Shown: piece by piece, positions 41,553-64,000 of the stretch
Layout: every line of letters starts with the position of its first letter
Numbering within the stretch: position 1 is the first letter of the stretch
NCBI RefSeq assembly: GCF_003813775.1
Contig: NZ_RPDH01000002.1
Location: 806,001 to 870,000 of the forward strand
DNA length: 64,000 bases
Direction of reading: 5' to 3'
DNA from: Chitinophaga lutea
Lineage (GTDB): Bacteria; Bacteroidota; Bacteroidia; Chitinophagales; Chitinophagaceae
The notes under the pieces: generated by a model
Seen by the model: only the letters and a program-made list of their open reading frames with translations
What the model was told of the DNA's origin: nothing
The model's database searches: none
Translations under genes and position numbers: made by a program

Positions 41553-41639
41553 AAGTGGAATTTTGTTCTACCTAATTAACCACCTTTTCCCCACATTTCG
41601 TTATAGCAAATTACCTTTCTGTAATCCGATTTTCGCTTC

Positions 41640-46156: not shown

Positions 46157-46180
46157 AGTGCAAATTTAAGCACTATGCAG
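46151..46180 (-). promoter_or_regulatory. Inverted repeat enclosing the promoter and start codon of the WG operon
   Basis: CTGCATAGTG at 46151-46160 and its exact reverse complement CACTATGCAG at 46171-46180, with 10 bases between. The between-part contains the -7 box TAAATTTG (46161-46168 on the minus strand), and the start ATG lies in the left arm. It may be the operator for a dimeric regulator, or an mRNA or DNA hairpin. Confidence 0.6.
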
Positions 46181-46199
46181 CAATTATAAACACGGCCGT

Positions 46200-46481: not shown

Positions 46482-46506
46482 CTTGTATGATTTAAGTGTG
46501 AGAAAA

Positions 46507-47247: not shown

Positions 47248-47510
47248 GTGCAAGTGATCAGGTGAAAAATCGAAACGGGTAATAAATCGGCAAAGGGGAG
47301 ACCAGATTGTAGAACCGGAAGAGGTGCCGTGGCAGCAACTAACAGCAGAATAAAGTAGTATCGACTTCTTATTACACTGGAAAGGTACGCTTTTCCATGT
47401 TAAGAAAATCACAAATAGGCGTTTTCTCCCTTACGGCTGTTGGCTGGTTACGGGAAATTTTTTAACTTTAAAACCCCGGTTTTCTAATCAAAATTCAAAT
47501 CATATCTGCC

Positions 47511-47921: not shown

Positions 47922-47992
47922 TAAGGGCAGACATTCTGACCTAAAACCGTTATCTTTACACATTACCTATATTAAAAAAAAGTATATTTACC

Positions 47993-49285
47993 TTGTATTT
48001 TGATGAATTTGATTTCGACGACGATCTGCTGGATGGTATAGACGCAATGGGGTATACTACCGCCACCCCGGTTCAGGAACAGGTGATCCCCATCATTTTA
48101 TCCGGCAGGGATTTGATAGCATCCGCACAAACGGGCACAGGCAAAACAGCCGCTTTTTTGCTGCCCACGATGCAGAACCTGCTCACCCATACCCACGACG
48201 CACACCAGATCAACTCCATGATAATTGTGCCCACCCGCGAGCTTGCCGTGCAGATTGCACAAACGCTCGAAGGGATGAGCTATTTTACCAATATCAGCTC
48301 CATTGCCGTTTACGGCGGGGGCGACGGCGCGTCTTTCGCCGTGGAGAAAAAAGCCCTCTCGACAGGGGCGGACATTGTGATTTGCACTCCCGGCCGCATG
48401 ATCGCCCATCTCAACATGGGTTATGTGAAGCTCCAGGGGCTCAAATACCTGGTGCTGGATGAGGCCGACCGGATGCTCGACATGGGTTTTCATGACGATA
48501 TTGAAAAGATCATTTCGTTCCTGCCCAAAGAGCGGCAAACCCTCCTGTTCTCGGCTACCATGCCGGACAAGATGCGTAAACTCGCCATGAAGATCCTGAA
48601 AGATCCCGCGCAGGTCAACATCGCCATTTCCAAACCGCCTGAGAAAATCAAGCAGGAAGCGTTTGTGGTGAATGAAGACCAGAAGGTGCCGCTGGTGAAA
48701 CACATCCTCAGCAGCCGTAAAACGGAAAGCGTGATCGTGTTCTGCTCCCGCAAACAAAGTGTGAAGCAGCTCACCGCCGTGCTGAAACGCGCCAAATTCT
48801 CCGTGGAGGAAATCCATTCCGACCTGGAGCAGGACAAACGAGAGCAGGCGCTGCTCGACTTCCGCAACCACAAACTGAACGTGCTGGTGGCCACAGACAT
48901 TCTGAGCCGCGGCATCGACATAGAAGACATTGACCTGGTGATCAACTTCGACGTACCCAACGACGGGGAAGATTACGTACACCGCATCGGGCGTACCGCC
49001 AGGGCCGCTTCAGACGGCACGGCCTACACCTTCATCGCTCCCAAGGAGCAGCACCGCTTCGCCCGTATCGAGCAGCTGCTGGGCCATGAAGTGACCAAAG
49101 CGCCCGTACCCGAAGAACTGGGGCCTGCCCCCGCATACCAGCCCAAAACCCGCAAAGGCGGAGGAGGCGGTGGCGGTGGCCAGCACGGCGGAGGTGGCGG
49201 CAAACGCCACAAACCCGGCGGCGGTAAAAAAAGAAATCATCACCCGGAAAGAACGAACCGCCCGGAACGAAAAAACAAGCCGTAA
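47993..49285 (+). CDS. DEAD-box RNA helicase (RhlE/CsdA type)
   Basis: 430 aa. All helicase motifs are visible: Q motif (ATPVQEQVIP), I ASAQTGTGKT, Ia PTRELAVQ, Ib TPGRM, II DEAD, III SAT, IV VIVFCSRK, V TDILSRGID, VI HRIGRTAR. The C-terminal tail is glycine-rich then basic (PGGGKKRNHHPERTNRPERK), typical of RNA-binding extensions. It unwinds structured RNA and helps ribosome assembly or RNA decay, often at low temperature. The start is uncertain: the frame opens with TTG at 47993, which matches the homologous N-terminus DEFDFDDDLLDG; the first in-frame ATG is 48047. The terminator hairpin overlaps its last codons. Confidence 0.9.
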   Translation: MYFDEFDFDDDLLDGIDAMGYTTATPVQEQVIPIILSGRDLIASAQTGTGKTAAFLLPTMQNLLTHTHDAHQINSMIIVPTRELAVQIAQTLEGMSYFTNISSIAVYGGGDGASFAVEKKALSTGADIVICTPGRMIAHLNMGYVKLQGLKYLVLDEADRMLDMGFHDDIEKIISFLPKERQTLLFSATMPDKMRKLAMKILKDPAQVNIAISKPPEKIKQEAFVVNEDQKVPLVKHILSSRKTESVIVFCSRKQSVKQLTAVLKRAKFSVEEIHSDLEQDKREQALLDFRNHKLNVLVATDILSRGIDIEDIDLVINFDVPNDGEDYVHRIGRTARAASDGTAYTFIAPKEQHRFARIEQLLGHEVTKAPVPEELGPAPAYQPKTRKGGGGGGGGQHGGGGGKRHKPGGGKKRNHHPERTNRPERKNKP

Positions 49286-49307
49286 GCATTGCTTACGGCT
49301 TGTTTTT
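49271..49307. terminator. Bidirectional terminator overlapping the helicase stop codon
   Basis: Stem AAAAACAAGCCGTAAGC / GCTTACGGCTTGTTTTT with loop ATT. The TAA stop of the helicase (49283-49285) is inside the left arm. It also sits downstream of the minus-strand SusC/D operon and has T runs on both strands. Confidence 0.9.
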
Positions 49308-49329
49308 TTATGTATGCCGCTTGTGCGGC

Positions 49330-50940
49330 TTATTGATATTTCATCTTCACGATCCGGTTCGCCGAGCGGAAATCGAACTGTGTGAAACTGCCCACCATCA
49401 GCGCGGCTTTCTGGCCTACCATGGGTATCACCTGTTCCACAAAACCGTTGGTGATGCCCCCATTGGAGTTGTAAGACTTATGCACGGCGCCTTCCGCCGT
49501 CAATACCACGAAGTTGTTGCGGCTCACGCCGGCAAACTTGCGGAAAATACCTGCCACCAGGAGCTCTCCGCCCGGCAGCCGGTTGATTTTCAGGGCATAC
49601 CCGTCGGCGCCATCCCCTACATTAAAAGTGGGATCGATCGCGCCGTTGGCTTCCAGCCGCACCAGGCCGATCGCCTTTGCGCCGTTAAAGCGGGTAAACC
49701 GGCCTGCGCAGATGATCTTGCCGTCCGGCTGCACCAGCATGTCAAAAATCACCAGGTCCGCGCCCGAGCCGGGATTAAAGGATTGATCCAGCGTACCGTC
49801 CGGGTTGAGGCGGGCGATATGCGGCGCCGGCTGGCCGCCATAGGTGGTGAAGTTACCCGCGATCAGCAACTTGTCGTCCGGCAACAGTACGGCACTGCTG
49901 ATGGGCGCATTGACAGTCACTTTGCCCTGGTGATTGGCCAGGTCGTAGTGGTACGACGAGTCCAGTTCCCCGTCCGGATGCAGGCGGGCAATCTGGAACA
50001 CCGCCGTGGAGTCGAGATGCATCGAATCGGTTTTCAGTTCAACCGTCTGCAGTTTGTAGTTCGGCTTCACGTAGAACTTGAAATCGCCCACGACCATTAT
50101 TTTTCCGTCTTTCTGTAAAAATATCTCGCGAACGCCACCCCTGAAACCGCCTGCCAGGGCAGACGTGGCTACCGTGGCGCCGGAAGGCCGGAGTACAGAC
50201 ACGTTGTCCACTCCCCCGTTGGTGTTCACCTTGGCGATGCAGTGCACGTTCGTCACCTGGTCGTAGCCGGAGAAGCTGCCGCCTATCAGGTACTTTTTTT
50301 CGTCGGGCAGATAAACCATCGGCCGGATGTACCCGCCGGTGGGCCCGAGATTCTCCCCGTAAGTATAGGTACGGTCCAGCGTACCGTCTGCATTGATGCG
50401 CGCAAGGCGGTTCACGCCGCCTTTGATTGCGGAGTTGTCGTATTCGGTGAAGCTGCCGGCGATCATGTACTTGTCTCCCGGCACGGGCATCACGTTCAGG
50501 ATTTGCCCATTGGCTCCCCTGAAACCGGGGTACACCGTATCCATCTGCAAGGGGCCGAGCACCGGGAAAAAGGGCCCGTAATAGAATTCCTGCCCTACCT
50601 GTGCGGACACCGCGCCGGTGCTGCCCAGTTCCGGTATACGCACTTTCACCGTGCTGTCGGTTACAGACACGATGGTGCCTGCCGTGCCGCCGAACTGAAT
50701 AACCAGCCTGTCTTTCACCGCCAGGAAACCTTTTCCCTTGATGGTAATTTCATCGTTGGCGAAACCTTTCCCCGGCGTGAGCGCGCGTTCTTCTGCAAAG
50801 CTGATGGCAGGCAGTACGGGCTCCCCGTAGGGGCTTCCGCCGTCGCTGTTCACCGATTCCTTCTGGCAGGCGGCCAGCAGCGCCACAGCGGCGATGCTTC
50901 CTATAAAACCTTTGTGGATCGTTCTTCTCATCATTTGCAT
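49330..50940 (-). CDS. DUF5008-type lipoprotein with IPT and delta-60 repeats
   Basis: 536 aa, last gene of the SusC/D operon. Lipoprotein signal ending LAAC (Cys about 25). Residues about 45-120 are an IPT/TIG-like beta-sandwich (RALTPGKGFANDEITIKGKGF to STVKVRIPEL). From about 150 on, repeats of the delta-60 type with the signature (V/I)ARL(N/H)PDG.LD.(S/T)(F/Y)....G....(V/I)......(Q/P)DGK(I/L) occur, for example DGTLDQSFNPGSGADLVIFD and EANGAIDPTFNVGDGADGYAL. The order IPT then delta-60 fits DUF5008, which is associated with SusC/D loci. Outer-membrane, surface-facing binding protein by inference; it overlaps the fasciclin gene by 1 nt. Confidence 0.8.
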   Translation of the reverse strand: MQMMRRTIHKGFIGSIAAVALLAACQKESVNSDGGSPYGEPVLPAISFAEERALTPGKGFANDEITIKGKGFLAVKDRLVIQFGGTAGTIVSVTDSTVKVRIPELGSTGAVSAQVGQEFYYGPFFPVLGPLQMDTVYPGFRGANGQILNVMPVPGDKYMIAGSFTEYDNSAIKGGVNRLARINADGTLDRTYTYGENLGPTGGYIRPMVYLPDEKKYLIGGSFSGYDQVTNVHCIAKVNTNGGVDNVSVLRPSGATVATSALAGGFRGGVREIFLQKDGKIMVVGDFKFYVKPNYKLQTVELKTDSMHLDSTAVFQIARLHPDGELDSSYHYDLANHQGKVTVNAPISSAVLLPDDKLLIAGNFTTYGGQPAPHIARLNPDGTLDQSFNPGSGADLVIFDMLVQPDGKIICAGRFTRFNGAKAIGLVRLEANGAIDPTFNVGDGADGYALKINRLPGGELLVAGIFRKFAGVSRNNFVVLTAEGAVHKSYNSNGGITNGFVEQVIPMVGQKAALMVGSFTQFDFRSANRIVKMKYQ

Positions 50941-51641
50941 TAGTCTTTAGAATTTAAGTAATCGAGGGCGATGCGCAGGAAATCGTCTGTCCGGAAACCG
51001 AAATTGTGCTGTATGCTCAACACATGCACCACGCCGTTTTTCGGCTGTATGTCGGATGATACGACGCGTACCCTGGGGTTGTTGCGGAAGTTGGTGGGGT
51101 CGAAGGTAATATCCGTCACATACAGGATACGCGGCCCCACGGCCTCCACTCCATTGTAGGTGGTGTATTCCAGCCCGATGTTGAGGATATACCCGTCGAG
51201 CATCACGTAGTTGATGCCGGGGAAAGCGTTGATGTTATTGTAGCTCACGCGGGGGAAAGTACCCGCGGTATGTTTGCCCTTCATGACGTACATGCCGAGA
51301 AACTTGCGCCATACTTCCTGCCCGATATCGGATATTTTCACGGAATCTTTCCCGGCAATGAAGCGGTTTAAATTCACCAGGTTCATGGCGTCGCGGATCA
51401 CGTCGTCCGAAGGCGCGAAAAAGGTGATCGTGTCCTTGGTCATCATGTCTTTCATCCCCGCCAGGTCTACGATCGCCTTGATGGTATCGAAGTACATGGT
51501 TTTTTCGGTGAGGTAATCATAGATGGTGCCGTTATAGATGGGGTTGGCCTTCCCCCCGTCCACGTAATAATCCTTTTTGCAGGACTGTGAGAACAGTACC
51601 AGGCAGCAAAGCGCCAGCGGCCATTGAAATATTTTCTTCAT
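50940..51641 (-). CDS. Fasciclin-domain lipoprotein
   Basis: 233 aa. Lipoprotein signal with FSQSCKKD (Cys 20). Residues about 40-230 form a fasciclin (FAS1) domain: TIYDYLTEKTMYFDTIKAIVD at the start, TITFFAPSDDVIRDAMN as the first conserved FAS1 strand-helix, and GVVHVLSIQHNFGFRTDDFLRIAL near the end. FAS1 modules mediate adhesion. Position after SusD and 1-nt overlap with the DUF5008 gene put it in the operon. It lacks the two carbohydrate-binding modules of the fasciclin protein at 57571, so the two are not simple duplicates. Confidence 0.87.
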   Translation of the reverse strand: MKKIFQWPLALCCLVLFSQSCKKDYYVDGGKANPIYNGTIYDYLTEKTMYFDTIKAIVDLAGMKDMMTKDTITFFAPSDDVIRDAMNLVNLNRFIAGKDSVKISDIGQEVWRKFLGMYVMKGKHTAGTFPRVSYNNINAFPGINYVMLDGYILNIGLEYTTYNGVEAVGPRILYVTDITFDPTNFRNNPRVRVVSSDIQPKNGVVHVLSIQHNFGFRTDDFLRIALDYLNSKD

Positions 51642-51661
51642 ACAATCAGTTTTTTAAAAGT

Positions 51662-53164
51662 CTATTGAACCCAATAGGCCGTTTGAACAAGGAGCGGGTT
51701 GGTGCGCATGGCGGATGCCGGTATGGGCCACGTCCAGGCGCGGCGCTCAAACTGGTCGGGGCTCAGGTAATTATCGCATTCGCCCATTTCCATCACGCGG
51801 CCCGTTCTTACGAGGTCTGTCCACCGCTGTCCTTCTCCCATCAGTTCTTTCGTGCGTTCGCGGAAGATGGCGTCTTTCAGTTCGTCGCCACCGGCGCCGG
51901 TATATTCTTCCGTTTCGGCGCGGCGTCTGATCTCGTTCAGCAGGTCGATGGCCTCCGCATCGTGACCGCCCAGTTCAGCCAGTGCCTCCGCACGGAGCAG
52001 CAGCACGCCGGCGTACCGGATGTAGATCATGTTGAAGTCGAACGACCGGTTGGCCGGGTCCGGAATATCTGAATATTTGAGGAACATGGACGACTGCGGG
52101 TTGATGGTGGAGTACGGATCGTCGAACCAGAGCATAAACCGTGCGTCCTGTTTGCCGGGCGGGTAGAGATAATCGATGAACTGGCGTTTGATGGTCACTT
52201 CGCTGGCGAGGCCGCCGAAGAGCGTGGTGCTCGTAGCCAGGATAGGCTGATGGAGCACCCACTGCGCCATAAAGGCGCCGTTGGAGTTGCCGTAGTTGGC
52301 GTCCATGCTGATTTCCCAAACACCTTCATCCGAGCGGCCCTTGAAAATTTCCTTGAAGGCCTCGCGTGTGTAAGGCAGGAGGCGGTACATCCCCAGGTCC
52401 ATCACTGCCTTGCACGACTCGGCGCATTTCTGCCACCATTCCGCGGCGCGGGGTTTGTCGAAGCCCGCTTTCCAGGCGTACATATTGGCCATCAGGCCGA
52501 AAGCAGCGCCCTTAGTGGCCTTTACGGCTTTGTTGGTGGGGTCGCTGTAACCATCTGGCAAATCCCTCGCCGCCAGCTGGAGGTCGGCGATGGCCGTGTC
52601 CAGCACCTGCAGCATGTTGGTACGTGCTTTCAGCTTTGAGTCGTACGGGTCCAGCTGCAGGGGCACATCGCCATAATGCGTAACGAGCAGGTAATAGCTG
52701 AACGCGCGGATAAAGCGGGCCTCGCCGAGCAGGCTCGCCCTGTAAGCCGTGCTCATCGTGTTATCCTGGATGGCCGGGATCTTGTCGAGGCAAAGGTTCG
52801 CCATCGCAACAGCCTGGTAAAAGGCAGCCCAGCTTTCGCGCAGCGCATGCGTGTTATCCGATGCGGACAAATCCGAGCTTTGCAGGAGATTCCTGGACAG
52901 TGCCTCGAAATTCCTCTTCAGCCAGAAGTTCCAGTTGCCCGGCCTGAAGTCGTTGTTGGTGTAGATAGAAGCGTTGCCCAGGCGGCCTCTCAAGATGCTG
53001 TACCCGGTGTTGACCCCGGCTTCCGCATCCGCCGCATTTTTCCAGAAATCCGCCCCCGTAAATTTGTCGGTAGGCTCCAGTTCCAGGAACTTTTTACAGG
53101 CGGACAGCCCGGAGGCCGCTGCCAGCACCATACACACCAGTATTATTCTGCAATAGTGTTTCAT
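51662..53164 (-). CDS. SusD/RagB-family lipoprotein (second pair)
   Basis: 500 aa. Lipoprotein signal (GLSACKKF, Cys 23). Family landmarks: LELEPTDKFTGADFWKN, the TPR-like helices LRESWAAFYQAVAMANLCLDKIP and RASLLGEARFIRAFSYYLLVTHYGDVPL, then KGAAFGLMANMYAWKAGF, and the C-terminal LLRAEALAELGGHDAEAIDLLNEIRRRA and RTKELMGEGQRWTDLVRTGR. SusD proteins cap the SusC channel and bind the substrate on the cell surface. Located 62 bp downstream of its SusC. The pair is different in sequence from the pair at 59211/60722, so the ligands may differ. Confidence 0.92.
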   Translation of the reverse strand: MKHYCRIILVCMVLAAASGLSACKKFLELEPTDKFTGADFWKNAADAEAGVNTGYSILRGRLGNASIYTNNDFRPGNWNFWLKRNFEALSRNLLQSSDLSASDNTHALRESWAAFYQAVAMANLCLDKIPAIQDNTMSTAYRASLLGEARFIRAFSYYLLVTHYGDVPLQLDPYDSKLKARTNMLQVLDTAIADLQLAARDLPDGYSDPTNKAVKATKGAAFGLMANMYAWKAGFDKPRAAEWWQKCAESCKAVMDLGMYRLLPYTREAFKEIFKGRSDEGVWEISMDANYGNSNGAFMAQWVLHQPILATSTTLFGGLASEVTIKRQFIDYLYPPGKQDARFMLWFDDPYSTINPQSSMFLKYSDIPDPANRSFDFNMIYIRYAGVLLLRAEALAELGGHDAEAIDLLNEIRRRAETEEYTGAGGDELKDAIFRERTKELMGEGQRWTDLVRTGRVMEMGECDNYLSPDQFERRAWTWPIPASAMRTNPLLVQTAYWVQ

Positions 53165-53226
53165 CTGTCAAAATTTTGATGATCGGCGGCACCGGCTCAT
53201 CGGGCGCCGCTGATATTCGTGTTAAT

Positions 53227-56200
53227 TTAGAACTCCGCGTTAAAGCCGATGGTGAAGCTCCTCGCCGCCGGGTAACCGTTGATATCGTCGCGGCCGAGCT
53301 GGCTCACGGTTTCAGGGTTAGGCCCGGAATATTTCGAGATGATGGCCAGGTTGTACAGCGTGGTGTACACCCTGAGCGTACGTATTTTGGCCCTTCTCAT
53401 GAAGTCGAAATCCCTGAACTGGTAATTGAGCGTTACCTGGTTGATCTTGAAATACGAACCGTCTTCCATGAACATGGTCTGATCCAGCCTGAAGGGCTGT
53501 ATCTGGCCGTTGCGGTAGAAGTAGTACACGTTGGGATACTTTGCACCTGCGTCTCCCTCTCCTTTCCAGTAATTGAGCTGGTCGAGGTCATAGATGTTCA
53601 CCGAACCGCCGATACCGCCATCGTAGATGATATTGTTCGGCTGGGTGAGGCGCATCAGGCGGCCGGCCACTGCATTGTTCAGGATATCGCGCTTCCAGGT
53701 GAAGGAACAGAAAACGTTCAGCGAAAAATTCTTATAGCTGACGGTGTTGGAGATACCACCGGTGGCACGCGGCTCGGGGTTGCCGACGATCATGTTGTCT
53801 TCCTCATCGTCGAGCATGTAGTCTCCGTTCACGTCTTTCCAGATGGGGTCGCCTGCCAGGAAATATGACGGTGTGTTGCCTTTGCCGGTTTTATACCGGA
53901 TACCGCGGATCGGATCTACCGGCACATCTCCGTTTCTGTCATAAAAGCCCTGCGTGTAATACAGGTAGTTGGAGATCGGGTTGCGGCCTACTTTCCGCGC
54001 CAGGTCCTGGTAATAAGGAGCACCGTCGTTATAGCGCATCGATTTCAGGCCACCGGGCAGTTCCGTCAGCACGCCGCGGGCGATCGCGCCATTGGCGGAG
54101 ATCATCCACTGGAAGCCCGCAGGTTTCTTGGAAGCGATGGGCCGCACCGTAACGGACAATTCATGGCCGTAATTGACGATGGCGCCACCGTTCATCTGTA
54201 TCCTGTTATAACCCGTAACGTCCGTGAGCGGCACTTCCATAACGAGGTTATACGAGCGTTTGTAGTAGGTATCGTAATTGAAGCTGAAGCGGCCTTTAAA
54301 GAGGCTCACATCCAAACCCACATCGTACTGGCGTGATTTTTCGGATTCCAGGAACGGGTTCGGCATCAGCCCGAATTCGGGGCCGATAGCGGTCTGGTTA
54401 TTGTAATCCGCGAATACCTGGTAGATGCCGAGGGCGTTCACCTGGTTGGCCACCGGGCGGCTGTTGATACCGTAGCTGCCGCGTATGGACCCGTAATCGA
54501 GGAAATTGAGATCCTGGAACAGCGGTTCTTTGTTGAAGTTCCACCTTACGCCCAGCGCGGGGTTCACCGAATAGCGGCTGGCCAGCCCGGAACTGGAGTT
54601 ACCGTCTGCGCGGTACGAGAGGTCCAGCACATACTTCGTTCTGAAGTTGTAGGAGATGAAACCGGCGTAAGACATGGCGTGATACGTACGGCTGACCGGC
54701 GTGCCATTGGTGTTGATGTTGCCGGCGTCATTCCAGGGGTTACCCGGGTAAAAACGCGGAGAGTACCCGCGGGGGCCCCAGTAAAAATCGCTCGGCCCGT
54801 TGCGCATTTCGCGGATGTGCTGTTCATTTTCCATGATATTGGCCTCCGTGAACGCGCTCACCAGGATGTTGTGCCCTGCCTCGGAATCGTCCGGGCGCGT
54901 GCTGAAATTATAGGCCAGGCCGTTACGCGTATTGAGCTCTCCCCTGCGGCCCACGAAGCCGTATGAAAGCGTCTGGTTATTGTTGGAGAACCCGCGGTTA
55001 AACCGGTCGCGGGTATCGGTGTAATAGTCGTACGAAGTGGTTGACGTGAGGCGCAGCCCGCGGAGCACTTCATAATCCACGCTCAGGAAGCTGCGGATGT
55101 TCACGGTGTTGTTATCATCCACATTCTCGAGGTAAGCCCTCAGTTCCGGGAACTCGAGGAAGTGCGAAGGGCCGGGCAGCAGTGAAGAGGTAAAGGCGTT
55201 GCCCGCGCCGTTGCCGGTAAGGCCGCCGCCGTTGCCGCGCTTCTTCTGGCCATAGCCGCCAAAGAGCTGGCCGCTTACGCGGAGCCGCGTATTCGGCTGC
55301 ATGTTCAGCTGGAGGTTGAGGCTGTATTTGTTGAAGCCGGTGTTTTTGATCACACCCTGGTTCATCTGGTAGGCGAGGTTCGCCTTGTAGTTCATCTTGG
55401 AATTACCGCCGGTGATCTGGAGGTTGTTATTCGTGTTGAGGGTGGTCTGGTAAAAAAGCCCCTGCCAGTCGGTGCTGTTATTGAAAAACCCGTTAAGACT
55501 GTCTGACAGGAAGATGGCCCCATCCATATCATCCCTGGCCTTGCGTTCGCTCCGGTTGTAGTCCATGATGGCCTTGATACGGTAGTCTCTCTCCTTATTG
55601 CCGCCCCATACGCTGCGCAGCGCAGGTGGTACGTTCACGAACAGGGAGTTGTTGGTGCTGATGATGGGCACGGCGGAATTACCACGTTTGGTGGTGATCA
55701 CGATCACCCCGTTGGCGCCGCGGGAACCGTACAGCGAAGCCGCCTGCGCGTCCTTGTAGATTTCGATGGACTCCACGTCTTCCGGCGGGATGAGCGACAG
55801 CGGGCCTGTTGCGGCGCCGGGCTGCAGCATCGACTGGTCTACGCCGCCGTCATATTCCACCGGCACGTTGTCTATCACCAGCAGCGGGTTGGAACTGGCC
55901 AGGAAGGCCTGGTCGCCGCTGCCCGAAATGTTCAGCTGGGAAATGCCGCGGATGGAAATGGTGCCGCCAAAACCGGGCGCGCCGGTGTTGACCTGGATGT
56001 TCATGCCCGCCACCTTGCCCTGGAGCAGCTGCTCCAGGTTAGGCACCGGCACGTTCTGTATGTCTTTTCCGCTGATGGAGCTGGAGGCCCCGGTCATCGT
56101 TTCTTTAGAACGTTTCTGGTAACCCACCACCACCTGTTCTTTGAGGCCCGTTTCCGCCGGCACCAGTACGATGCGCAGCGGCGCGCTGCCCGCCTTTACC

Positions 56201-56466
56201 GTTTTATCCTGGTACCCGATGAACCGGAACAGCAGGGATTTTCCTTCTTCGATGGTAAGGGTGAAATTGCCGTTTTGGTCCGTCACCGCAATCCCTTTCC
56301 TGGCGGCGACATCCATGATGCTCACCCCCGGTATGCCGGCGCCGGACGTACCGCCTTCGGTCACCTTGCCCGTTACCGTTATTTTTTGCTGGGCATACGC
56401 CTCGCCGCCGGCCAGAAGCGCCAGCACAAGACAGAGCCGTATGATGCCAGTGTATAATTTATGCAT
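53227..56466 (-). CDS. SusC/RagA-family TonB-dependent outer-membrane transporter (second pair)
   Basis: 1079 aa. Signal peptide (MHKLYTGIIRLCLVLALLAGGEAYA), then a CarboxypepD_reg-like beta-sandwich (KITVTGKVTEGG to IGYQDKTVKAG), the TonB plug (KEQVVVGYQKRSKETMTG; VPNLEQLLQGKVAGMNIQ; GGTISIRGISQLNISG; LLVIDNVPVEYD; VESIEIYKDAQAASLYGSRG, ANGVIVITTKRG), and a long beta-barrel ending in NPETVSQLGRDDINGYPAAR and an aromatic-terminated last strand (TIGFNAEF). It imports an oligomer across the outer membrane with TonB energy. ATG 56466 is chosen because the earlier Met lies 12 residues before a clear signal peptide. Confidence 0.92.
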   Translation of the reverse strand: MHKLYTGIIRLCLVLALLAGGEAYAQQKITVTGKVTEGGTSGAGIPGVSIMDVAARKGIAVTDQNGNFTLTIEEGKSLLFRFIGYQDKTVKAGSAPLRIVLVPAETGLKEQVVVGYQKRSKETMTGASSSISGKDIQNVPVPNLEQLLQGKVAGMNIQVNTGAPGFGGTISIRGISQLNISGSGDQAFLASSNPLLVIDNVPVEYDGGVDQSMLQPGAATGPLSLIPPEDVESIEIYKDAQAASLYGSRGANGVIVITTKRGNSAVPIISTNNSLFVNVPPALRSVWGGNKERDYRIKAIMDYNRSERKARDDMDGAIFLSDSLNGFFNNSTDWQGLFYQTTLNTNNNLQITGGNSKMNYKANLAYQMNQGVIKNTGFNKYSLNLQLNMQPNTRLRVSGQLFGGYGQKKRGNGGGLTGNGAGNAFTSSLLPGPSHFLEFPELRAYLENVDDNNTVNIRSFLSVDYEVLRGLRLTSTTSYDYYTDTRDRFNRGFSNNNQTLSYGFVGRRGELNTRNGLAYNFSTRPDDSEAGHNILVSAFTEANIMENEQHIREMRNGPSDFYWGPRGYSPRFYPGNPWNDAGNINTNGTPVSRTYHAMSYAGFISYNFRTKYVLDLSYRADGNSSSGLASRYSVNPALGVRWNFNKEPLFQDLNFLDYGSIRGSYGINSRPVANQVNALGIYQVFADYNNQTAIGPEFGLMPNPFLESEKSRQYDVGLDVSLFKGRFSFNYDTYYKRSYNLVMEVPLTDVTGYNRIQMNGGAIVNYGHELSVTVRPIASKKPAGFQWMISANGAIARGVLTELPGGLKSMRYNDGAPYYQDLARKVGRNPISNYLYYTQGFYDRNGDVPVDPIRGIRYKTGKGNTPSYFLAGDPIWKDVNGDYMLDDEEDNMIVGNPEPRATGGISNTVSYKNFSLNVFCSFTWKRDILNNAVAGRLMRLTQPNNIIYDGGIGGSVNIYDLDQLNYWKGEGDAGAKYPNVYYFYRNGQIQPFRLDQTMFMEDGSYFKINQVTLNYQFRDFDFMRRAKIRTLRVYTTLYNLAIISKYSGPNPETVSQLGRDDINGYPAARSFTIGFNAEF

Positions 56467-56491
56467 GATTTGCTGGTTTAAAAGTTGAGCA

Positions 56492-57562
56492 TTAATCGTC
56501 ACTGAATTTGGGATTGATCCGGTAACGGAATATCACCGTCCATTCCCCGGGCTCATGAATACTGAGTTTCAGGCCGATCGTCCCTATCCTGCGGGAACCG
56601 AAAGACACCCTGGTAAAGCGGAAATTATATTCCGCTTCCTCGTCGCCGGGAAATACCTCAGAGAGAATGGGAAACGGGTTGGTGATATCGTAGGTCACCG
56701 ACATGCTGTCTTTCGGGATGCGGCCGTTAAAGCCGAATTTCACGTTGCGGTCGGCCATTTTGCTGTAATAGAACAGGCTGTCCCAGCGCTGGTAGTTAAA
56801 GACCGTGAGGGGGATGCCGATGCTGTCTTTGTCCACGAATTTGAAGGTGATCGTGTTGGCTGCGTTCCCCGTTTTCACGAAGTATACCTGCACGTTTTCC
56901 GCTTTGATTTCGCGTTGCTGCGCGTCCACATGGCCGGTAAGGGTGGTGGGGCGGATGATGCCGCCGGAATTATCCGGTTTCCGCAAACCGGTGATGTCGT
57001 CGAACTCGTAAGGGTCGTAGGGCCTGGGCCGGCGGAGATCGATCGTCAGACCGGTAAACAGGCGTTCTCCGGCGCCGTTCTTCACTTTCACGTCGAAATA
57101 ATATTTGCCGTACCGCACTTTGTTCGAATCCACCGGCCAAACCACCAGCTGGCCGTTCTGGCTGTTCATGTCCACGATGGGCCGGCGCACCGTGATGCGC
57201 TTCGCTTCGATTTCGGCGATGGATTTTTCCGTACCGGTGTAATAGTCTTTCCACTGCCGGGTATCCACCAATTCCTGCAATACAGGGGCAGGTACTTTTC
57301 CTTCCACCCGGGGAGACATCAGCGTGAACTCCAGCGGTTGCGTGGAGTAGTCGGCGTTGAAGACATTGATAAACATATTCGTGCGACCCAGGTTGGACAC
57401 AAAAACATCTTTCTTGAAGTTCATGTCTTTGCTCAGGTAGTCGGTTTCCACCGGCAGGGTGTCTTTATAACAGCCGGCCAGCGCAACCGCCAGCAAGCCT
57501 GCCGCGCAGGCCATCCGCTTCGTGCGCCGGGGTGTTTTTATATATTGGATAACTGGTTGCAT
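56492..57562 (-). CDS. DUF5007-type lipoprotein
   Basis: 356 aa. Lipoprotein signal ending AVALAGCYKD (Cys about 31). The following MNFKKDVFVSNLGRTNMFIN and a beta-sandwich rich in R(I/V)TVRRP and PRPYDPYEFDDITGLRK segments are consistent with DUF5007, a family I recall from Bacteroidota SusC/D loci; no enzymatic motif is visible. It starts 8 bp after the CBM-containing fasciclin gene and ends 25 bp before the second SusC, so it is between the two halves of the operon. Outer-membrane, probably surface-exposed, ligand-binding role inferred from context. Confidence 0.72.
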   Translation of the reverse strand: MQPVIQYIKTPRRTKRMACAAGLLAVALAGCYKDTLPVETDYLSKDMNFKKDVFVSNLGRTNMFINVFNADYSTQPLEFTLMSPRVEGKVPAPVLQELVDTRQWKDYYTGTEKSIAEIEAKRITVRRPIVDMNSQNGQLVVWPVDSNKVRYGKYYFDVKVKNGAGERLFTGLTIDLRRPRPYDPYEFDDITGLRKPDNSGGIIRPTTLTGHVDAQQREIKAENVQVYFVKTGNAANTITFKFVDKDSIGIPLTVFNYQRWDSLFYYSKMADRNVKFGFNGRIPKDSMSVTYDITNPFPILSEVFPGDEEAEYNFRFTRVSFGSRRIGTIGLKLSIHEPGEWTVIFRYRINPKFSDD

Positions 57563-57570
57563 GGTTGAAT

Positions 57571-59202
57571 TTATTTAGCGACGAAAGTCAGTTTGGCAAT
57601 GTTGAAACCGGCCGCGTCCATGAATACTTTGAGATCGTGCGTGCCGGCGGTGAGGGTCACGTCTTTTTTGATGAGGTCCGTATACGTGCCATAGGCGCCG
57701 GTTCTCGGCACCGTGAGCACGCCCGTCACGTTCGCGCCGTCTATTTCGGCGTGCACCTTGCCGGTCGTATTCGGTGAGCTGACGCGGAAAACGATGTCGT
57801 ATTTGCCTGTTTTCTGCACGTTCACCGTGTACAGTGTCCATTCTCCCGCAGCGGTATAACCCAGGTTAAACCCTTTTTCCGGAGACGGCGCCTGTTCCAC
57901 GTCCGGGCCTTCGAAGGCGCGCATCATCTGTTTGGCATTGCCCCTGTTCTGTGCGTCCACGTCTTTGTAGCCGATGCCTTCGCCGCCCCAGTCGAATTCC
58001 GCAATGGGCACCACGCCGGGGATGTTCAGCGGCAGTGCGTTGAAGGGTTTCCGGAACTTGGGCACAAAACCCAGGCGCGCCATATTAAAGCCCGCCGCGT
58101 CCACAAAGAAGGTGGCTACATGCTCTCCTTCGGTCAGGAAAACGTCCGCGCCCTGTATGGTCACCCAATCCTGGTAGCCGGTACCTTTCGGTATGTTCAG
58201 CAAGCCGGTCACGTTTTTGCCGTCTACTTCGAGGTGAAAAATGCAGTTGGAGTTGGGCGTAGCTACGCGTCCGTAAGAGCGGTACAGGCCGCTATGCTCC
58301 ACCTTCACGGTATAATTCAGCCATTCGCCGGGGAAAGTAAACCCAACGTTATAGGGCCCTTCCGTACAGTTGTCCATGTCCACGCCTTCTTCGAAGCGGT
58401 ATTTGCCGTTGCCGCGGTTGGCCGGCTCAAAATCGTGGTAGGCCACACCTTCGCCCCCTTTGTCGAAATAGGCGATGTCGATGCTACCTGCTCCCGGCAC
58501 CAGAAAGGGATTGCCGAAGAACGGCATCATCTGCGCCGGATATGCCTGCGGGAGGAAAGAGGTAAATCCGAAAACATGTTTGGGCGTGAGCATGTGCACC
58601 ATGCCGTTGGTGGTTTTCAGGTTGGTGGATTCCGTGGTGGTGGACACCCAGAATTTGGTGAGGCGCGAATTATTCTTGTCGCTGAACTCGATGATCATGG
58701 AGCTGCCGTTTTGGATACCGGCCGCCGCCGTGCCCACCGCCTTTCCGCTCATTTCATAGCCATAGGGCGTCATCAGCGTCACCCCGTCTCCGAACCGCAG
58801 CGAATCGAGGTTGTAAATCCCTTCCACGAGGTAGCGGTGCAGCAGCGTATCCCATACGCCGGTGCTCACACTGTCTACCGTCCAGTTGGGCAGCTCGCCG
58901 CGCTTCTTGCGCGTAAAGTTGAGATTCTCCATGGCGGAGTTGATGCTGAAATCCTGCGGCGCAAAAAAGGTATACCGGCCGCTCTTGAGTTTTTCAGCAA
59001 CACCGGTTTTATCGAGCAGGTGCAACAGCGTATCGTACAATCCGCTTTTATTGGCTTGCCTGATAAAATCGTAGGAGCTCATATTCACTTCCTGCACCGG
59101 GGCCATATCCCGGTAGGGATTGTCTTTCTGACAACCGGCGGCAGCCGCACTACAGATGAGCGCTGCCAATATATGCCTGGTGGAAAATAGTCTTTTCGTC
59201 AT
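57571..59202 (-). CDS. Fasciclin lipoprotein with two CBM6-like modules
   Basis: 543 aa. Lipoprotein signal (SAAAAGCQKD, Cys about 24). A FAS1 domain about 40-215 (SSYDFIRQANKSGLYDTLLHLL; GRYTFFAPQDFSINSAM; NGMVHMLTPKHVFGFTSF) is followed by two homologous modules of about 135 residues (about 250-385 and 400-543), each with (E/G)GEG(V/I)(A/G)Y.D...(N)RGN, an aromatic-rich GEWLNYTV or GEWTLYTV strand, and a DAAGFN(M/I)A(R/K)L.FV end, a pattern known from family 6-type carbohydrate-binding modules. Fusion of FAS1 and CBMs suggests a surface glycan-binding adhesin. It is the third gene of the operon. Confidence 0.83.
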   Translation of the reverse strand: MTKRLFSTRHILAALICSAAAAGCQKDNPYRDMAPVQEVNMSSYDFIRQANKSGLYDTLLHLLDKTGVAEKLKSGRYTFFAPQDFSINSAMENLNFTRKKRGELPNWTVDSVSTGVWDTLLHRYLVEGIYNLDSLRFGDGVTLMTPYGYEMSGKAVGTAAAGIQNGSSMIIEFSDKNNSRLTKFWVSTTTESTNLKTTNGMVHMLTPKHVFGFTSFLPQAYPAQMMPFFGNPFLVPGAGSIDIAYFDKGGEGVAYHDFEPANRGNGKYRFEEGVDMDNCTEGPYNVGFTFPGEWLNYTVKVEHSGLYRSYGRVATPNSNCIFHLEVDGKNVTGLLNIPKGTGYQDWVTIQGADVFLTEGEHVATFFVDAAGFNMARLGFVPKFRKPFNALPLNIPGVVPIAEFDWGGEGIGYKDVDAQNRGNAKQMMRAFEGPDVEQAPSPEKGFNLGYTAAGEWTLYTVNVQKTGKYDIVFRVSSPNTTGKVHAEIDGANVTGVLTVPRTGAYGTYTDLIKKDVTLTAGTHDLKVFMDAAGFNIAKLTFVAK

Positions 59203-59210
59203 GATACAGG

Positions 59211-60707
59211 TTATTTCCAGAATGAATAATTCGTGAGTTGCGGATTGAGGCTGAGGGCCGATTTCGACAGGGGCCAGTAAGCGGCGCCATTGTCCACATC
59301 GGCCTGCGTCAGGTTGGAATAGGCGGGCACCTTGCCGAAGCTGACCAGGTCGTACCAGCGCCAGCCCTCTCCGATCAGCTCACGGCGCCGTTCTTCGAGG
59401 ATGAGATCGAGCAGCTCTTCTCCCTTTACCTGGTCGGTAACGGACGCAACATACCGCCGGTTGCGCAGCACGTTCAGCTCCGTACGCGCGTCCGCCTCCT
59501 TGTTAAGCCGTGCGTTGCACTCGGCACGCAGCAGTGTCAGCTCTTCATAACGGAAGATGACGATGGCCGAATTAAACAGGCGGAGCGTGGGATTCCTTAC
59601 AGCCGCATCCAGCATGCGCAGCTTGTAGAACATGGGCTGCATGCTGGACATGTCGGTGAAGAAGAGCGAGATCCGCACGTCCGAAGGATTGCTGTAAATA
59701 TTGAGGATGCTGTCTTTCGTCACATAGATTTCGGCTTCGTTTTTCGGCACATCGGGATAGCGGAGCGTCCAGTTTTCCAGCTGGCCGGTAGTGGAGATCT
59801 CCGCATGGTCGAGGTTGAAGTCGACCTGGAAAATATTCCAGTTCACACGGCCGCGGAAGGTGGCGTTCCCGGTGCTGCTCAGTACGAGATAGTTGTTGTC
59901 CGGCACGTACTCATACAGCGTCCTGGTTTTGTTGTTCATCACGAAGTCGATGTACTGCAACGCGGTGGCATAGTCTTTCTTCCAGGCGGCAATGTGGGCC
60001 AGCAGCGTATAGCAGGCGCCACGCGTGGCGAGAATGCTTTTCCAGTGCGAAAGGCCCTGGCCGCGGTAGTTGCCTTGCTGTTCGGGATCCTTGCCATCGT
60101 AGTTCCAGGGCAGGTCTTTGGCCGCCAGGAGCGCTTCCGCCGTGGCAAAGTCGAGCACCTTTTTCCAGTCCTCGCGCGCTTTGGCGGTGAAGTCGCCGTT
60201 AACGGCGTCGGTCACCAGCGGCACGTCGCCCCAGATACGGACCATGTAGAAATATGTAAAGGCCCGTAAAAAACGCACCTGCGCCACATCCAGTTTCATT
60301 TCCGAGCGGGGATACCGGTCGTCGAGCTCGGGAATGCCGGGCAGTTTGGCCAACGCCAGGTTACATTGCGCGATGACGGCATAGAACCTTCGCCAGTCGC
60401 GCCAAACGTCCATCGTCTGGTAGTTGGAGGTAAGCTCCGCGGAACGGAGCGCCTTGAGGTCGCCCCGTTTGGTGGCCGTAAAATCGCCCGCGCGCATTTC
60501 CCCGTACACCCAATAGGCGTTTTCGTTCGCCAGCGCCGCACGCAGCAGGCCATAAGCGGCAAAACTGCCGGCCCAGGCGTCGGTCCTCGTCTTCCACATG
60601 TTTTCTTCCGTCACGGCACGGGTGGAATCCACGTCGAGCATCTTTTTACAGGAGAGCCATCCGGTTGCCAACAGGCACATCAGGCTGCCCATCCATATAT
60701 GTCGCAT
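59211..60707 (-). CDS. SusD/RagB-family lipoprotein (first pair)
   Basis: 498 aa. Lipoprotein signal (ATGWLSCKKM, Cys 20). SusD landmarks: LDVDSTRAVTEENMWKTRTDAWAG, DWRRFYAVIAQCNLALAKLPG, VAQVRFLRAFTYFYMVRIWGDVPLVTDAV, ATRGACYTLLAHIAAWKKDYATAL, and the C-terminal EERRRELIGEGWRWYDLVSFGKVP. It is 14 bp downstream of its SusC and 8 bp upstream of the fasciclin-CBM gene. It should form the lid of the SusC channel at the cell surface. Sequence is quite different from the SusD at 51662. Confidence 0.92.
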   Translation of the reverse strand: MRHIWMGSLMCLLATGWLSCKKMLDVDSTRAVTEENMWKTRTDAWAGSFAAYGLLRAALANENAYWVYGEMRAGDFTATKRGDLKALRSAELTSNYQTMDVWRDWRRFYAVIAQCNLALAKLPGIPELDDRYPRSEMKLDVAQVRFLRAFTYFYMVRIWGDVPLVTDAVNGDFTAKAREDWKKVLDFATAEALLAAKDLPWNYDGKDPEQQGNYRGQGLSHWKSILATRGACYTLLAHIAAWKKDYATALQYIDFVMNNKTRTLYEYVPDNNYLVLSSTGNATFRGRVNWNIFQVDFNLDHAEISTTGQLENWTLRYPDVPKNEAEIYVTKDSILNIYSNPSDVRISLFFTDMSSMQPMFYKLRMLDAAVRNPTLRLFNSAIVIFRYEELTLLRAECNARLNKEADARTELNVLRNRRYVASVTDQVKGEELLDLILEERRRELIGEGWRWYDLVSFGKVPAYSNLTQADVDNGAAYWPLSKSALSLNPQLTNYSFWK

Positions 60708-60721
60708 AAAGTCGGTTTTAA

Positions 60722-63706
60722 TTATTTGAACAGTAAATTGAAGCCCAGGGTAAAGCTCTTCGGCTGCGCCCAGTTATACATGCCCTGGTCATACCCGAAG
60801 TAGTCGAATGCTTCCGGATCGCCGCCGCTGTAGTCGGTCAGGGTAAACAGGTTATTACCGGTCACGAATACACGTAATTGCCGAAGCCCGTTCCTCTCCA
60901 TCCAGGGACCGGCGAAATTATAAGTCAATGAGAGCGAGCGCAGTTTTACATACGAGGCCTTTTCAAGGAACAGCGTTTGTTCTACCTGGTAAGCCCTAAC
61001 GGGGCTCCATGGATTGTAGCGGGGCATTGCCTCGAGGTCACCGTCCGGCCGGGTCCAGTAGGTAAATTCCTTGGCGCCGTCGATTTCGTCCACCCCTTCG
61101 TTGTTGGCGAAATCAAACCGGTCCGCCAGCGCCTTGTTGAGCAGTTTCCTGCCGAAGGCGTAGCTGAACAACATGTTCAGTTCCAGCTTGCCGTAACGGA
61201 GCGTGTTGCCCCAACCGCCCTGTACGGCCGGATTGTGGGTGCCGGTGATCACGCGGTCGTTGTCGTTGATATCGTTGTCGCCATTCACATCGCGCCATTT
61301 GGGGTCGCCGGCTTTCATCGGCAGGCCCTGATAGGTCATGCCGGCGGGCACTTCACTGTCTGTCTGGTATATGCCGTCGTTGATAAGCAGCCAGTATTTA
61401 TCGACCGGTTTACCCACCACAAAACGGCGGTTGCCGAGCCTTACGTCCGTTTTTCCGTCGGGCAGGCGCAGCAGTTTCGTTTTATTGGCGGAAGCACTCA
61501 GCATGGTCGTCCAGCTGAATTTTTTACCGTTGAGGATATTGGCCTCTATGCCCAGTTCGCCGCCATAGTTGGCGATGTCCATCCCGTTCTTCCAAATGCC
61601 CGAGTACCCGCTTTCCGCTACGGCCGGCATTTTGATGAGCAGCTGCTTGTCCTGCCGGGTATACACGTCCAGCGAAACCTGCAGGCGATCGTTCAACAGT
61701 CCTATGTCGAGGCCGCCGTTCAGCTGGTCGGTATACGCCCAGCCGATACCTTCAGAAATGTAACCCAGTTCATAAGCGGCGTTGAGCACGGGAAAGGCGT
61801 CGTAGGTAGGCATGTTCGGAGAGCCTTCCCAACCGGCTTCCACATTGTATACCGGCCCTCCTTTATAATAGTCGTCCTGGAACATCTTGCCCACGCGGCC
61901 TGCGCTGGCGCGGAGCCGGAGGTTGCTGAAAACACGGCTGTCTTTCATGAAATCTTCGCCCGATATTTTCCAGGCAGCGGCCAGGGTCGGGAACAGTTTC
62001 CAGCGTTCGGCCTCGCTGACGTTGGAAGAACCGTCCTGCCGGAGATAGAGCTCAAAGAAATATTTGCCGGCGAGGCTGTAGTCGATGTCCGCATAGAAAG
62101 AAGCGAGATTGTTTTTCACACGGTCACGGTAATTGGCCGTGAGCCGCAGGTTATGCGAAGCGCCCGGTTTGTTGTCGTTATTGCCCGGCTGGTAGATCTG
62201 GATATAGTCGCTTTTACCTTTGTAGGCGCGGCCGTAGTTGTACTTCCACATATCCCACTGGTTATTTTGCCCGAGCGTTACGGAGAGCTGATGGCCTTTT
62301 GCCTGCAGCGGGGTTATTTCCACGGAATTGTCGAAAACCAGCCGCCGGTGCAGCCCGTCGTAGTTGGACACGAAGTTGTTGCCGTCGCTCACGGTGGTGG
62401 GAATGAACAGGTCGCGGTAATTCTGCCCGTGGTCGATGCCGAAGCGGGAGTTTATTTTCACGTACCGGCCAACGGTGTATTGCAGGGTGTTCAATACCCT
62501 GATGCTGGCGTTCCTGTTTTTGTCGATGCCTTTTTCGAGGTACCGGAAATACTGGTCTACGCCGGCTTTGTTGGATGACGGCGGTTTTTCGAGGTTGAAG
62601 ATATAATCTTCGTCGCCCATCCTGTCGCGAATGGTCTGCGCCCTGTCGCGGTTGGCCACGGCAGCGCTGATGAATGTGCTCCAGAGCAGGTTGCGCATCG
62701 GCATCACGTTAATGCCGAAGTTGACGTTGTAACGGCGGAGCCCGGTTTTTTCGGCTACGCCCTGTTCCGAAGCCTGGCCCACGCTGAAACGGAAACTGGC
62801 GAGCCTGTTCCCGCCGCTTACGGCAGCCTGCAGGCCGGTGTTCCAGCCGTTGCGGTAGTATGATTCATCCCAGTCTGCCCGGCCATAATAGGTCGAGTTG
62901 GTGGAATCTGCGAGATAAGACGGGAAGCTGCGGTATTGCTCGCGGGAGGCGTATCGGTCGTAGAAGGGCAGGCGAAAATCGCGCTCCCATCTGCCGTTGA
63001 TAACGTTCACGGCCGGTTTCAGGGACATGCCGGCGTAGCCGTTTACTTCCACCTGCAGCTCACCGCTGCGGGGGCCGCGGGTGACGATATTGATCACGCC
63101 GTTGGAAGCGAGGGGCCCGTATTTGGCGGCGGCGCCGAAGTCTTTGAGTACTTCAATACGCTGGATGTCGTTTACATTCAGGAAAACCAGGGGATCGATT
63201 TCGGTGCCCATGCGGTTGAAATCGAAGCGCTGTACGTCGTAGGCAAAGGAGTGATCGGTGATGAGCGGCATGCCGTCTACCATATAAACCGGCTGTGCGC
63301 CGAAGAGGTCGCCGTTTTTGAGCAGCAGGCCCGACGCTCCTCTGACGAAGGCGGCGCTGCGTTTACCCGGTTCGTTGGTGGGGATGCGGACATCCACGCC
63401 CGTGGCCCTTCCGAGGAGCATCTGGTTAACACTTGTGTAGGGAAGTTTTCTCACTTCATCCATATGTACGCGGCTAACTGCGCCGCCTGTACGTAGTAGG
63501 AGCTCGCTATGCGGGATATACCCGATCGTGTCCCTCGCCTGCACAGCTATGCCGCGCAATCGCTGATCCGCTTCGCTGTTGCCGGCGGAAGCGGTGGAAT
63601 CTGATTTTTTATATAGCTTTTGTTGCGCCGTAGCGCCTGCTCCCAGCATCAAGAGGCCCAGTAATAACGTGGCGCCTTTACCTGAACTTGGGTAGAAATA
63701 TGTCAT
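60722..63706 (-). CDS. SusC/RagA-family TonB-dependent transporter lacking the N-terminal regulatory domain (first pair)
   Basis: 994 aa from ATG 63706. Signal peptide (FYPSSGKGATLLLGLLMLG to GATAQQ), then a short linker, and the TonB plug starts early (VHMDEVRKLPYTSVNQMLLG; GVDVRIPTNEPGKRSAAFVRG; PVYMVDGMPLI; IQRIEVLKDFGAAAKYGP; NGVINIVTRGPRSG). The usual CarboxypepD_reg-like beta-sandwich of SusC proteins (about 80 residues) is not seen; only about 60 residues of linker lie between signal and plug. The barrel ends with an aromatic last strand (SFTLGFNLLFK). Part of the eight-gene operon; it should pair with the SusD at 59211. An alternative Met at 63757 would prepend a basic, less convincing N-terminus. 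Confidence 0.9.
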   Translation of the reverse strand: MTYFYPSSGKGATLLLGLLMLGAGATAQQKLYKKSDSTASAGNSEADQRLRGIAVQARDTIGYIPHSELLLRTGGAVSRVHMDEVRKLPYTSVNQMLLGRATGVDVRIPTNEPGKRSAAFVRGASGLLLKNGDLFGAQPVYMVDGMPLITDHSFAYDVQRFDFNRMGTEIDPLVFLNVNDIQRIEVLKDFGAAAKYGPLASNGVINIVTRGPRSGELQVEVNGYAGMSLKPAVNVINGRWERDFRLPFYDRYASREQYRSFPSYLADSTNSTYYGRADWDESYYRNGWNTGLQAAVSGGNRLASFRFSVGQASEQGVAEKTGLRRYNVNFGINVMPMRNLLWSTFISAAVANRDRAQTIRDRMGDEDYIFNLEKPPSSNKAGVDQYFRYLEKGIDKNRNASIRVLNTLQYTVGRYVKINSRFGIDHGQNYRDLFIPTTVSDGNNFVSNYDGLHRRLVFDNSVEITPLQAKGHQLSVTLGQNNQWDMWKYNYGRAYKGKSDYIQIYQPGNNDNKPGASHNLRLTANYRDRVKNNLASFYADIDYSLAGKYFFELYLRQDGSSNVSEAERWKLFPTLAAAWKISGEDFMKDSRVFSNLRLRASAGRVGKMFQDDYYKGGPVYNVEAGWEGSPNMPTYDAFPVLNAAYELGYISEGIGWAYTDQLNGGLDIGLLNDRLQVSLDVYTRQDKQLLIKMPAVAESGYSGIWKNGMDIANYGGELGIEANILNGKKFSWTTMLSASANKTKLLRLPDGKTDVRLGNRRFVVGKPVDKYWLLINDGIYQTDSEVPAGMTYQGLPMKAGDPKWRDVNGDNDINDNDRVITGTHNPAVQGGWGNTLRYGKLELNMLFSYAFGRKLLNKALADRFDFANNEGVDEIDGAKEFTYWTRPDGDLEAMPRYNPWSPVRAYQVEQTLFLEKASYVKLRSLSLTYNFAGPWMERNGLRQLRVFVTGNNLFTLTDYSGGDPEAFDYFGYDQGMYNWAQPKSFTLGFNLLFK

Positions 63707-64000
63707 AAGACGGAATTTTCGTGTAAAAGAACTCTTCATCCGCTGTGGCGGACGCACAGCGAATCATGCCGGTGCATGTATTATTCACACTGCATCAGCA
63801 GCATTAATGAAAATGACTGTCAAAAAGTAAAAACGATGGAGATTAAACGTTTCTTCCACACATGGCTCCCTGCATTGCTGCCATTTAATTTCACGATTGG
63901 GATTGACAGTAAAAGCGCATTAGACGGATACTGTTTGGTTGTTAGGCTGTTTTTGTTTCGATCATCTAGTTTACGTGGTTAATTTTTTCAATCAAATAAC
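63707..64000. other. Region upstream of the first SusC gene
   Basis: About 294 bp with no supported gene. A perfect 7-bp hairpin CGCTGTG / CACAGCG (63741-63761) lies 35 bp before the SusC start, in its leader. A -7-like box on the minus strand (TACTTTTTG, one base longer than consensus, 63829-63821) may be the promoter. No anti-sigma/ECF gene is visible before the window ends. Confidence 0.4.

Follow-up and report, generated by a model that had tools for sequence, protein, structure and literature searches.

The window examined here is a stretch of 64,000 nucleotides from Chitinophaga lutea (NCBI RefSeq assembly GCF_003813775.1, contig NZ_RPDH01000002.1, positions 806,001 to 870,000), and its minus strand carries an operon of eight closely spaced open reading frames running from 63757 (or 63706) down to 49330. 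We propose, with a probability of about 0.6, that this operon encodes a block for surface capture and TonB-dependent import, and that the block is a divergent copy, without local enzymes or a hybrid two-component system (HTCS) regulator, of the transport core of the arabinogalactan polysaccharide utilization locus (PUL) of Bacteroides thetaiotaomicron. The uptake function is well supported. The most likely substrate class would be type II arabinogalactan, arabinogalactan-protein or a similar galactan-rich glycoconjugate. The block is not a new kind of system but a variant of an import core that is already known. An earlier reading of the same DNA (the original prediction), which took it for a poorly described system, was only partly right: for both SusD proteins of the operon, the solved counterparts from B. 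thetaiotaomicron are ones that we place in the PUL BT0262-0290.

In order of transcription, the operon encodes a first SusC channel, a first SusD lipoprotein, a fasciclin protein with two carbohydrate-binding modules of family CBM6 and a DUF5007 protein, followed by a second SusC, a second SusD, a second fasciclin protein and a TIG/DUF5122 propeller protein. Each SusD position has its own solved counterpart: structure 3hdx scores 280-604 bits against 59 SusD1 proteins and 65-163 bits against 59 SusD2 proteins, whereas 3iv0 scores 196-466 bits against SusD2 and 69-138 bits against SusD1. According to their titles, these structures are NP_809182.1 and NP_809186.1 of B. thetaiotaomicron VPI-5482, and the two accessions are four apart, the same spacing as that of SusD1 and SusD2 in the block. 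In the excerpts available of earlier reports, BT0262-90 is described as an arabinogalactan PUL with the HTCS BT0267, and bt0268 as an arabinogalactan-responsive susC (PMC3243724, PMC6874557, PMC5061871); a table row gives BT0269-75 as SusD, hypothetical, DUF5007, SusD and DUF5124 (PMC10434189). Like the window, BT0262-BT0290 (PUL5; core BT0268 to about BT0275) thus has a SusD1 and a SusD2 at four-gene spacing, both orthologous to those of the window by sequence and by structure, with a DUF5007 gene between them, the intervening B. thetaiotaomicron genes being known by the names listed in that excerpt alone. Unlike BT0262-BT0290, the window copy was found with no adjacent HTCS, phosphodiesterase, M60 peptidase or glycoside hydrolase; its fasciclin protein is fused to two CBM6 modules, and it belongs to a deep separate clade. 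Enzymes cleaving galactan or arabinose, which characterize an arabinogalactan PUL, were likewise not found in the window locus. Because local enzymes and an HTCS are missing, we do not class the window copy as an arabinogalactan PUL; it is a homologue of the transport core of one.

The eight genes form a unit that recurs across genomes. Selection by DUF5007 match alone gave 62 other loci, namely 27 named loci in Chitinophaga, Pedobacter, Mucilaginibacter and Sphingobacterium, 32 full-length matches elsewhere and 3 from a phylum-wide draw; near-copies among them (L022/L023; L029/L030; L012/L061; L087-L089) mean that fewer than 62 cases are independent. The count leaves out L092-L094, whose DUF5007 matches are weak and partial, together with three more weak or contig-end DUF5007 matches, one from the phylum-wide draw, and seventeen partial matches. 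The exact order of the window, on one strand, is present in 60 of the 62. The two others are L031, truncated by a contig end, and L033, which is frame-broken with the same order; in L033 (Chitinophaga sp. E66), a block of the window's type is spread over many frames, reflecting sequencing errors or decay. Spacing in the other loci is tight as well (median gap 13 bp; 99.3% of 420 gaps at 100 bp or less). Such a gene order is far beyond chance. Comparison of gene order across relatives and conservation of the link between fasciclin genes and SusC/D had both been suggested as checks by the original prediction, and it passed both, the second in all 60 complete loci. DUF5007 itself is patchily distributed, occurring in 24 of 195 genomes of the family and, in the phylum-wide draw, in 5 out of 395, both figures counting this genome; no Bacteroides was identified among the DUF5007 genomes in that draw or in a contig profile search.

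This genome holds three complete eight-gene blocks: that of the window (contig C2) and two others, A and B (contig C1). Proteins at the same position across the three are 29-49% identical (35-49% for SusC and SusD alone), while SusC and SusD of unit 1 compared with those of unit 2 are 23-29% identical. In a tree of 59 loci, 3 of them from this genome (L031, L032 and L033 excluded; SusD rows below 33% identity or outside 440-620 aa skipped), SusD1 and SusD2 each occupy one side of a branch, with support of 98 and 99 in the Shimodaira-Hasegawa-like approximate likelihood ratio test. SusD1 and SusD2 distances correlate at 0.92, against a maximum of 0.15 in 1000 shuffles, and the two SusC-SusD pairs are inherited jointly as one unit. 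Judged from these comparisons, the doubling is evidently ancient, units 1 and 2 having diverged before the sampled loci. A recent tandem duplication was considered and ruled out, given the 23-29% identity of SusC and SusD between units and the early parting of the units. Within the window, SusC1 and SusC2 are 26% identical and SusD1 and SusD2 29%, so the original prediction was right that the pairs are not close copies; its modular doubling also had the correct age.

The doubling extends to three positions rather than the four first claimed, because the protein at the fourth position of unit 2 matches DUF5008 only below the cut-off (19.3 against 25.4 bits) and BLAST finds no match between it and the DUF5007 protein at E 0.01. 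The plan of SusC, SusD and fasciclin is repeated as described; the DUF5007 protein of unit 1 is answered in unit 2 by a TIG/DUF5122 propeller. DUF5008 is above cut-off at the propeller position of blocks A and B (56 and 66 bits). L092, L093 and L094 each consist of a single SusC-SusD-fasciclin-DUF5007 unit with a weak DUF5007 match. Like the window they have the first four positions in order; unlike it they have no second SusC, SusD, fasciclin and propeller past DUF5007, and their DUF5007 match is only partial. These loci suggest that the block arose from the joining of two units. L092 and L094, a possible ancestral form, each have close by a gene whose start, judged by eye, resembles LacI.

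Blocks of this order are of two classes. A phosphodiesterase/alkaline-phosphatase-type gene directly follows 44 of the 60 exact blocks, and 15 lack it and have the window's own proteins as best match; a sixteenth block (L085) has its downstream side masked, and its fasciclin protein matches the window CBM6. Of the 15, 14 are in the tree and all fall inside the clade of the window, which in this sample contains Chitinophagaceae only (15 rows; support 97 for SusD1 and 99 for SusD2). The window CBM6 is matched by all 16 window-type fasciclin proteins tested (the window's included) against 8 of 46 of the phosphodiesterase type, and Pfam CBM_6 is present in 23 of the 59 fasciclin proteins scanned. 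Both further blocks of this genome have the same eight genes and order as the window, with additions: block A (G000 C1:14.6-29.6 kb, L005) adds one phosphodiesterase, then AraC-type regulators, and block B (C1:726-747 kb; L007, L140) adds a phosphodiesterase, an M60 peptidase and two more DUF4983 genes and, unlike the window, has GH38-, GH120-like and GH92 genes upstream. Solved relatives were found neither for the block B fasciclin protein (E 0.1) nor for the block B phosphodiesterase (E 0.001).

Flanks were covered for 6 of the 17 other window-type loci and 14 of the 44 phosphodiesterase-type loci, and were searched with 20 references (enzymes, peptidase, regulator) from related loci. Because these references were partly drawn from the flanks of L099, L102, L106, L107, L108 and L011 (the HTCS), the scores of the phosphodiesterase type are partly circular, whereas that of the window type is not. 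Phosphodiesterase-type flanks have an M60 peptidase downstream in 9 of 14 cases and an HTCS upstream in 4 of 14, with domains confirmed on representatives; the part available of one report describes M60-like enzymes as glycoprotein-degrading peptidases (PMC3267712). The 12 flanks of the six window-type loci gave one match to the 20 references, a GH92 in L129. No glycoside hydrolase was matched in the 16 flanking proteins scanned with Pfam (nine of L004 and seven of window 33925-49285), and no HTCS was detected among the nine L004 proteins; a search of window 1-49300 and L004 with the HTCS reference gave no match. The operon shows one mark of a PUL, adjacent susC and susD genes, in the form of two pairs with TIGR04056 and SusD_RagB above their cut-offs; another, glycan-cutting enzymes within the locus, was found neither in the operon nor in the flanks searched. 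That the operon has no recognizable hydrolase had been stated correctly before: at E 0.01, Pfam assigns no catalytic family to any of the eight products.

Enzymes near related blocks bear on the substrate. The nearest relatives of the B. thetaiotaomicron SusD pair are Mucilaginibacter L015 and Sphingobacterium L020. Downstream of the block, at distances of 4 to 30 kb, L015 has three GH35 genes, an alpha-L-arabinofuranosidase (GH51 type) and a GH43, and L020 has a GH35, a GH2 and a GH43 matching exo-beta-1,3-galactanases. A homologous locus with carbohydrate-active enzymes, which the original prediction had named as evidence against itself, was found in part, as SusD matches to a PUL that we assign by reasoning and as galactose- and arabinose-type hydrolases at this distance in the two genera. 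Several points weigh against our proposal. SusD1 of the window is 38% identical to 3hdx, and the assignment of NP_809182 and NP_809186 to BT0262-0290 uses BT numbers that we infer from two other number pairs. In L020, 17-30 kb separate the block from the GH43 and GH2, whose co-regulation with it is hypothetical. Genes near other related blocks vary (GH29, GH95, GH38, GH92, GH20) and, because neighbouring genes differ in this way, the block is not tied to a single glycan. Furthermore, the separate clade of the window block means that the substrate may have drifted, none of the 20 references matches window 1-49300 or L004, and the sole glycosidase-like gene seen in the window, a GHL10 at 21273-23609, is 26 kb off. 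With genes lying between, this gene is outside the operon, although a role in trans is conceivable.

These points leave room for a second, clearly less probable explanation, namely that the import machine is the same and the substrate another, the Chitinophagaceae clade having been re-aimed through CBM6 (for example to hemicellulose, beta-glucan or a microbial wall glycan) and arabinogalactan playing no part. The contrast in CBM6 matches between the two classes, the depth of the clade and the failure to find galactan enzymes nearby speak for such a change, as do the closest solved CBM6 relatives, which include modules from a cellulase, an endo-1,3-beta-glucanase and further polysaccharide-cutting enzymes. 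However, CBM6 fusions also occur in the 8 phosphodiesterase-type loci and in L085, and therefore are no substrate marker alone; all eight positions, moreover, are retained. It is very improbable that the operon is instead a relict, a decaying PUL that has lost its enzymes and regulator and is disappearing. The enzymes, peptidase and HTCS of related loci were indeed not found nearby, flanks are common to few relatives only and one window-type locus, L033, is frame-broken, but all eight frames are open here and in 15 of the 17 other window-type loci (L031 meets a contig end and L033 is broken), with identity of up to 82% to C. alhagiae.

Under the proposed import block, the polymer would be bound on the cell surface by the four accessory lipoproteins (fasciclin with two CBM6, DUF5007, fasciclin and TIG-propeller) and cut by enzymes from other parts of the genome, and the two different SusC-SusD transporters would import oligomers or glycopeptides of different kinds. 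The CBM6 lipoprotein, the two SusC-SusD pairs and the M60 genes in 9 of 14 related downstream flanks support the original prediction that a glycan or glycoconjugate cut elsewhere is bound at the surface and taken up. Its other suggestion was an adhesion function. We considered this in a form in which the fasciclin lipoproteins would mediate attachment to surfaces of plants or fungi, the channels being passengers. The operon has no enzymes, and in the excerpts available fasciclin is read as an adhesion domain in plant fasciclin-like arabinogalactan proteins (PMC8424115), bacterial fasciclin being mentioned there solely as an adhesion domain (PMC2668756, PMC10199937). An adhesion-only role is nevertheless less likely, and we consider it highly doubtful, because none of the 60 complete loci has lost either TonB-dependent SusC channel; several relatives also have glycoside hydrolases downstream.

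We further considered an import of the RagAB type, in which glycopeptides or peptides from glycoproteins would be the cargo and sugars secondary. The CBM6 modules argue against it, as does the M60 reference, which is unmatched near the window copy, and the B. thetaiotaomicron counterpart is arabinogalactan-responsive in the excerpts cited above (PMC3243724, PMC6874557, PMC5061871); we regard it as unlikely. The window block shares the SusD fold with RagAB and with the utilisomes of the levan BT1762-1763 complex type, and differs from both in that one operon combines two dissimilar SusC-SusD pairs with lipoproteins of the fasciclin, DUF5007 and propeller types, a combination seen at the level of genes. 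Within the portions available of a largely open-access literature, the PMC10434189 table row was the only description found of fasciclin or DUF5007 proteins in SusC-SusD loci. An extension of the import reading, which we put forward only tentatively and consider rather doubtful, is that the two SusC-SusD pairs, both fasciclin proteins, DUF5007 and the propeller form a single obligate dual-transporter complex acting at the surface on glycoproteins, for instance arabinogalactan-proteins. One channel would take up glycan oligomers and the other glycopeptides, and the Chitinophagaceae version would be a free-standing, CBM6-guided scavenger supplied by enzymes from other loci or other organisms.

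The individual genes are as follows, all on the minus strand and, as the original prediction had it, eight in number with two SusC, two SusD, two fasciclin and one DUF5007 product. With the longest reading frames, the intergenic gaps are 14, 8, 8, -11, 62, 20 and -1 bp. The first, susC1 (60722..63757), encodes a SusC/RagA TonB-linked outer-membrane channel (TIGR04056 476 bits; Plug) and may start at GTG 63757 or at ATG 63706, the start chosen previously; CarboxypepD_reg was matched in none of 28 proteins scanned at this position (E 0.01). It is followed by susD1 (59211..60707), the counterpart of NP_809182 (PDB 3hdx). The first fasciclin lipoprotein (57571..59202) matches Fasciclin at 24.7 bits against a cut-off of 22 and has two C-terminal CBM6 modules, which had been overlooked before (CBM_6 107 bits in two stretches); beyond residue 240 its two parts share 44.5% identity over 146 columns. 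The DUF5007 lipoprotein (56492..57562; DUF5007 103 bits) is a putative surface glycan-binding protein, and as to a SusE-like fold its sole match among solved structures is at chance level (E 0.07).

In unit 2, susC2 (53227..56502) encodes a SusC/RagA channel with an N-terminal CarboxypepD_reg-like domain (TIGR04056 612 bits; Plug, TonB_dep_Rec_b-barrel, CarbopepD_reg_2), with GTG 56502 or ATG 56466 as start. The product of susD2 (51662..53164; SusD_RagB 103 bits) is the counterpart of NP_809186 (PDB 3iv0, 203 bits). No CBM was detected in the second fasciclin lipoprotein (50940..51641; Fasciclin 26.7 bits), which is 34-37% identical to the same-position proteins of the other two blocks in this genome. 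The last gene (49330..50940) encodes a TIG and DUF5122/delta-60 beta-propeller lipoprotein (DUF5122 165 bits, TIG 32 bits, TIGR02608 112 bits), its N-terminus being the DUF5008-like part. Each of the six proteins other than the channels opens with a hydrophobic stretch closing in C-[KQY]-K, in keeping with lipoproteins, and they are probably located at the surface.

The operon and a convergent DEAD-box helicase gene share a symmetric intrinsic terminator at 49270..49308, as had been proposed: an 18-pair hairpin between A and T runs folds with -28.9 kcal/mol (z -6.21), and 0 of 200 shuffles are as stable. The evidence is the RNA fold; a general signal scan had not listed 49270..49308, probably because the stem extends into the T tract. 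The helicase stop codon (49283-49285) sits within a hairpin arm. The DUF5007 and susC2 reading frames overlap by 11 bp, or lie 25 bp apart with the later susC2 start. In agreement with the original prediction, no internal promoter separating the halves was detected, promoter-like sites not exceeding shuffles (11 against 8.3 +- 3.4); the strongest on the minus strand (53171-53142) is at and inside the susD2 start. The Bacteroidota -7 promoter motif TANNTTTG is absent from the minus strand of the operon. It is not present upstream of susC1 either, as far as position 64000, so that the promoter of the operon itself also went undetected. Rfam gave no match within 46000-64000.

As to a further mark of a PUL, an adjacent sensor-regulator (HTCS, SusR or a pair of extracytoplasmic function (ECF) sigma and anti-sigma factors), neighbouring genes include a divergent ECF-like sigma factor with DUF6596 (L004:2775-3965, about window 64774-65964), starting about 1 kb upstream of susC1. 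Homologues are found in 6 of the 17 other window-type loci and in 0 of 41 other loci examined (L072 excluded). Because the three neighbourhoods compared over wider flanks (this genome, L131 and L134) are shared whole, a regulatory link is unproven. Further out, L004:4477-8850 encodes a 1457-aa protein fusing an AcrB-type efflux pump to an outer-membrane efflux (OEP) domain. On the other side, two adjacent long WG-repeat proteins (764 and 741 aa; window 38769-46156) lie beside a protein sorted by the type IX secretion system (T9SS), with an F5/8 type C match below cut-off. The GHL10 protein has a weak T9SS tail match and adjoins a PAS-histidine kinase-receiver protein (23703-26042) and an AraC regulator (26946-27806).

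The block ties lipoproteins of uncharacterized families (DUF5007, DUF5008/DUF5122 and bacterial fasciclin) to one conserved import block, whose B. thetaiotaomicron counterpart would have a known trigger. It thereby raises the questions of why two channels and four surface lipoproteins are needed for one substrate class, and why Chitinophaga retains the machine minus its usual accessory genes.
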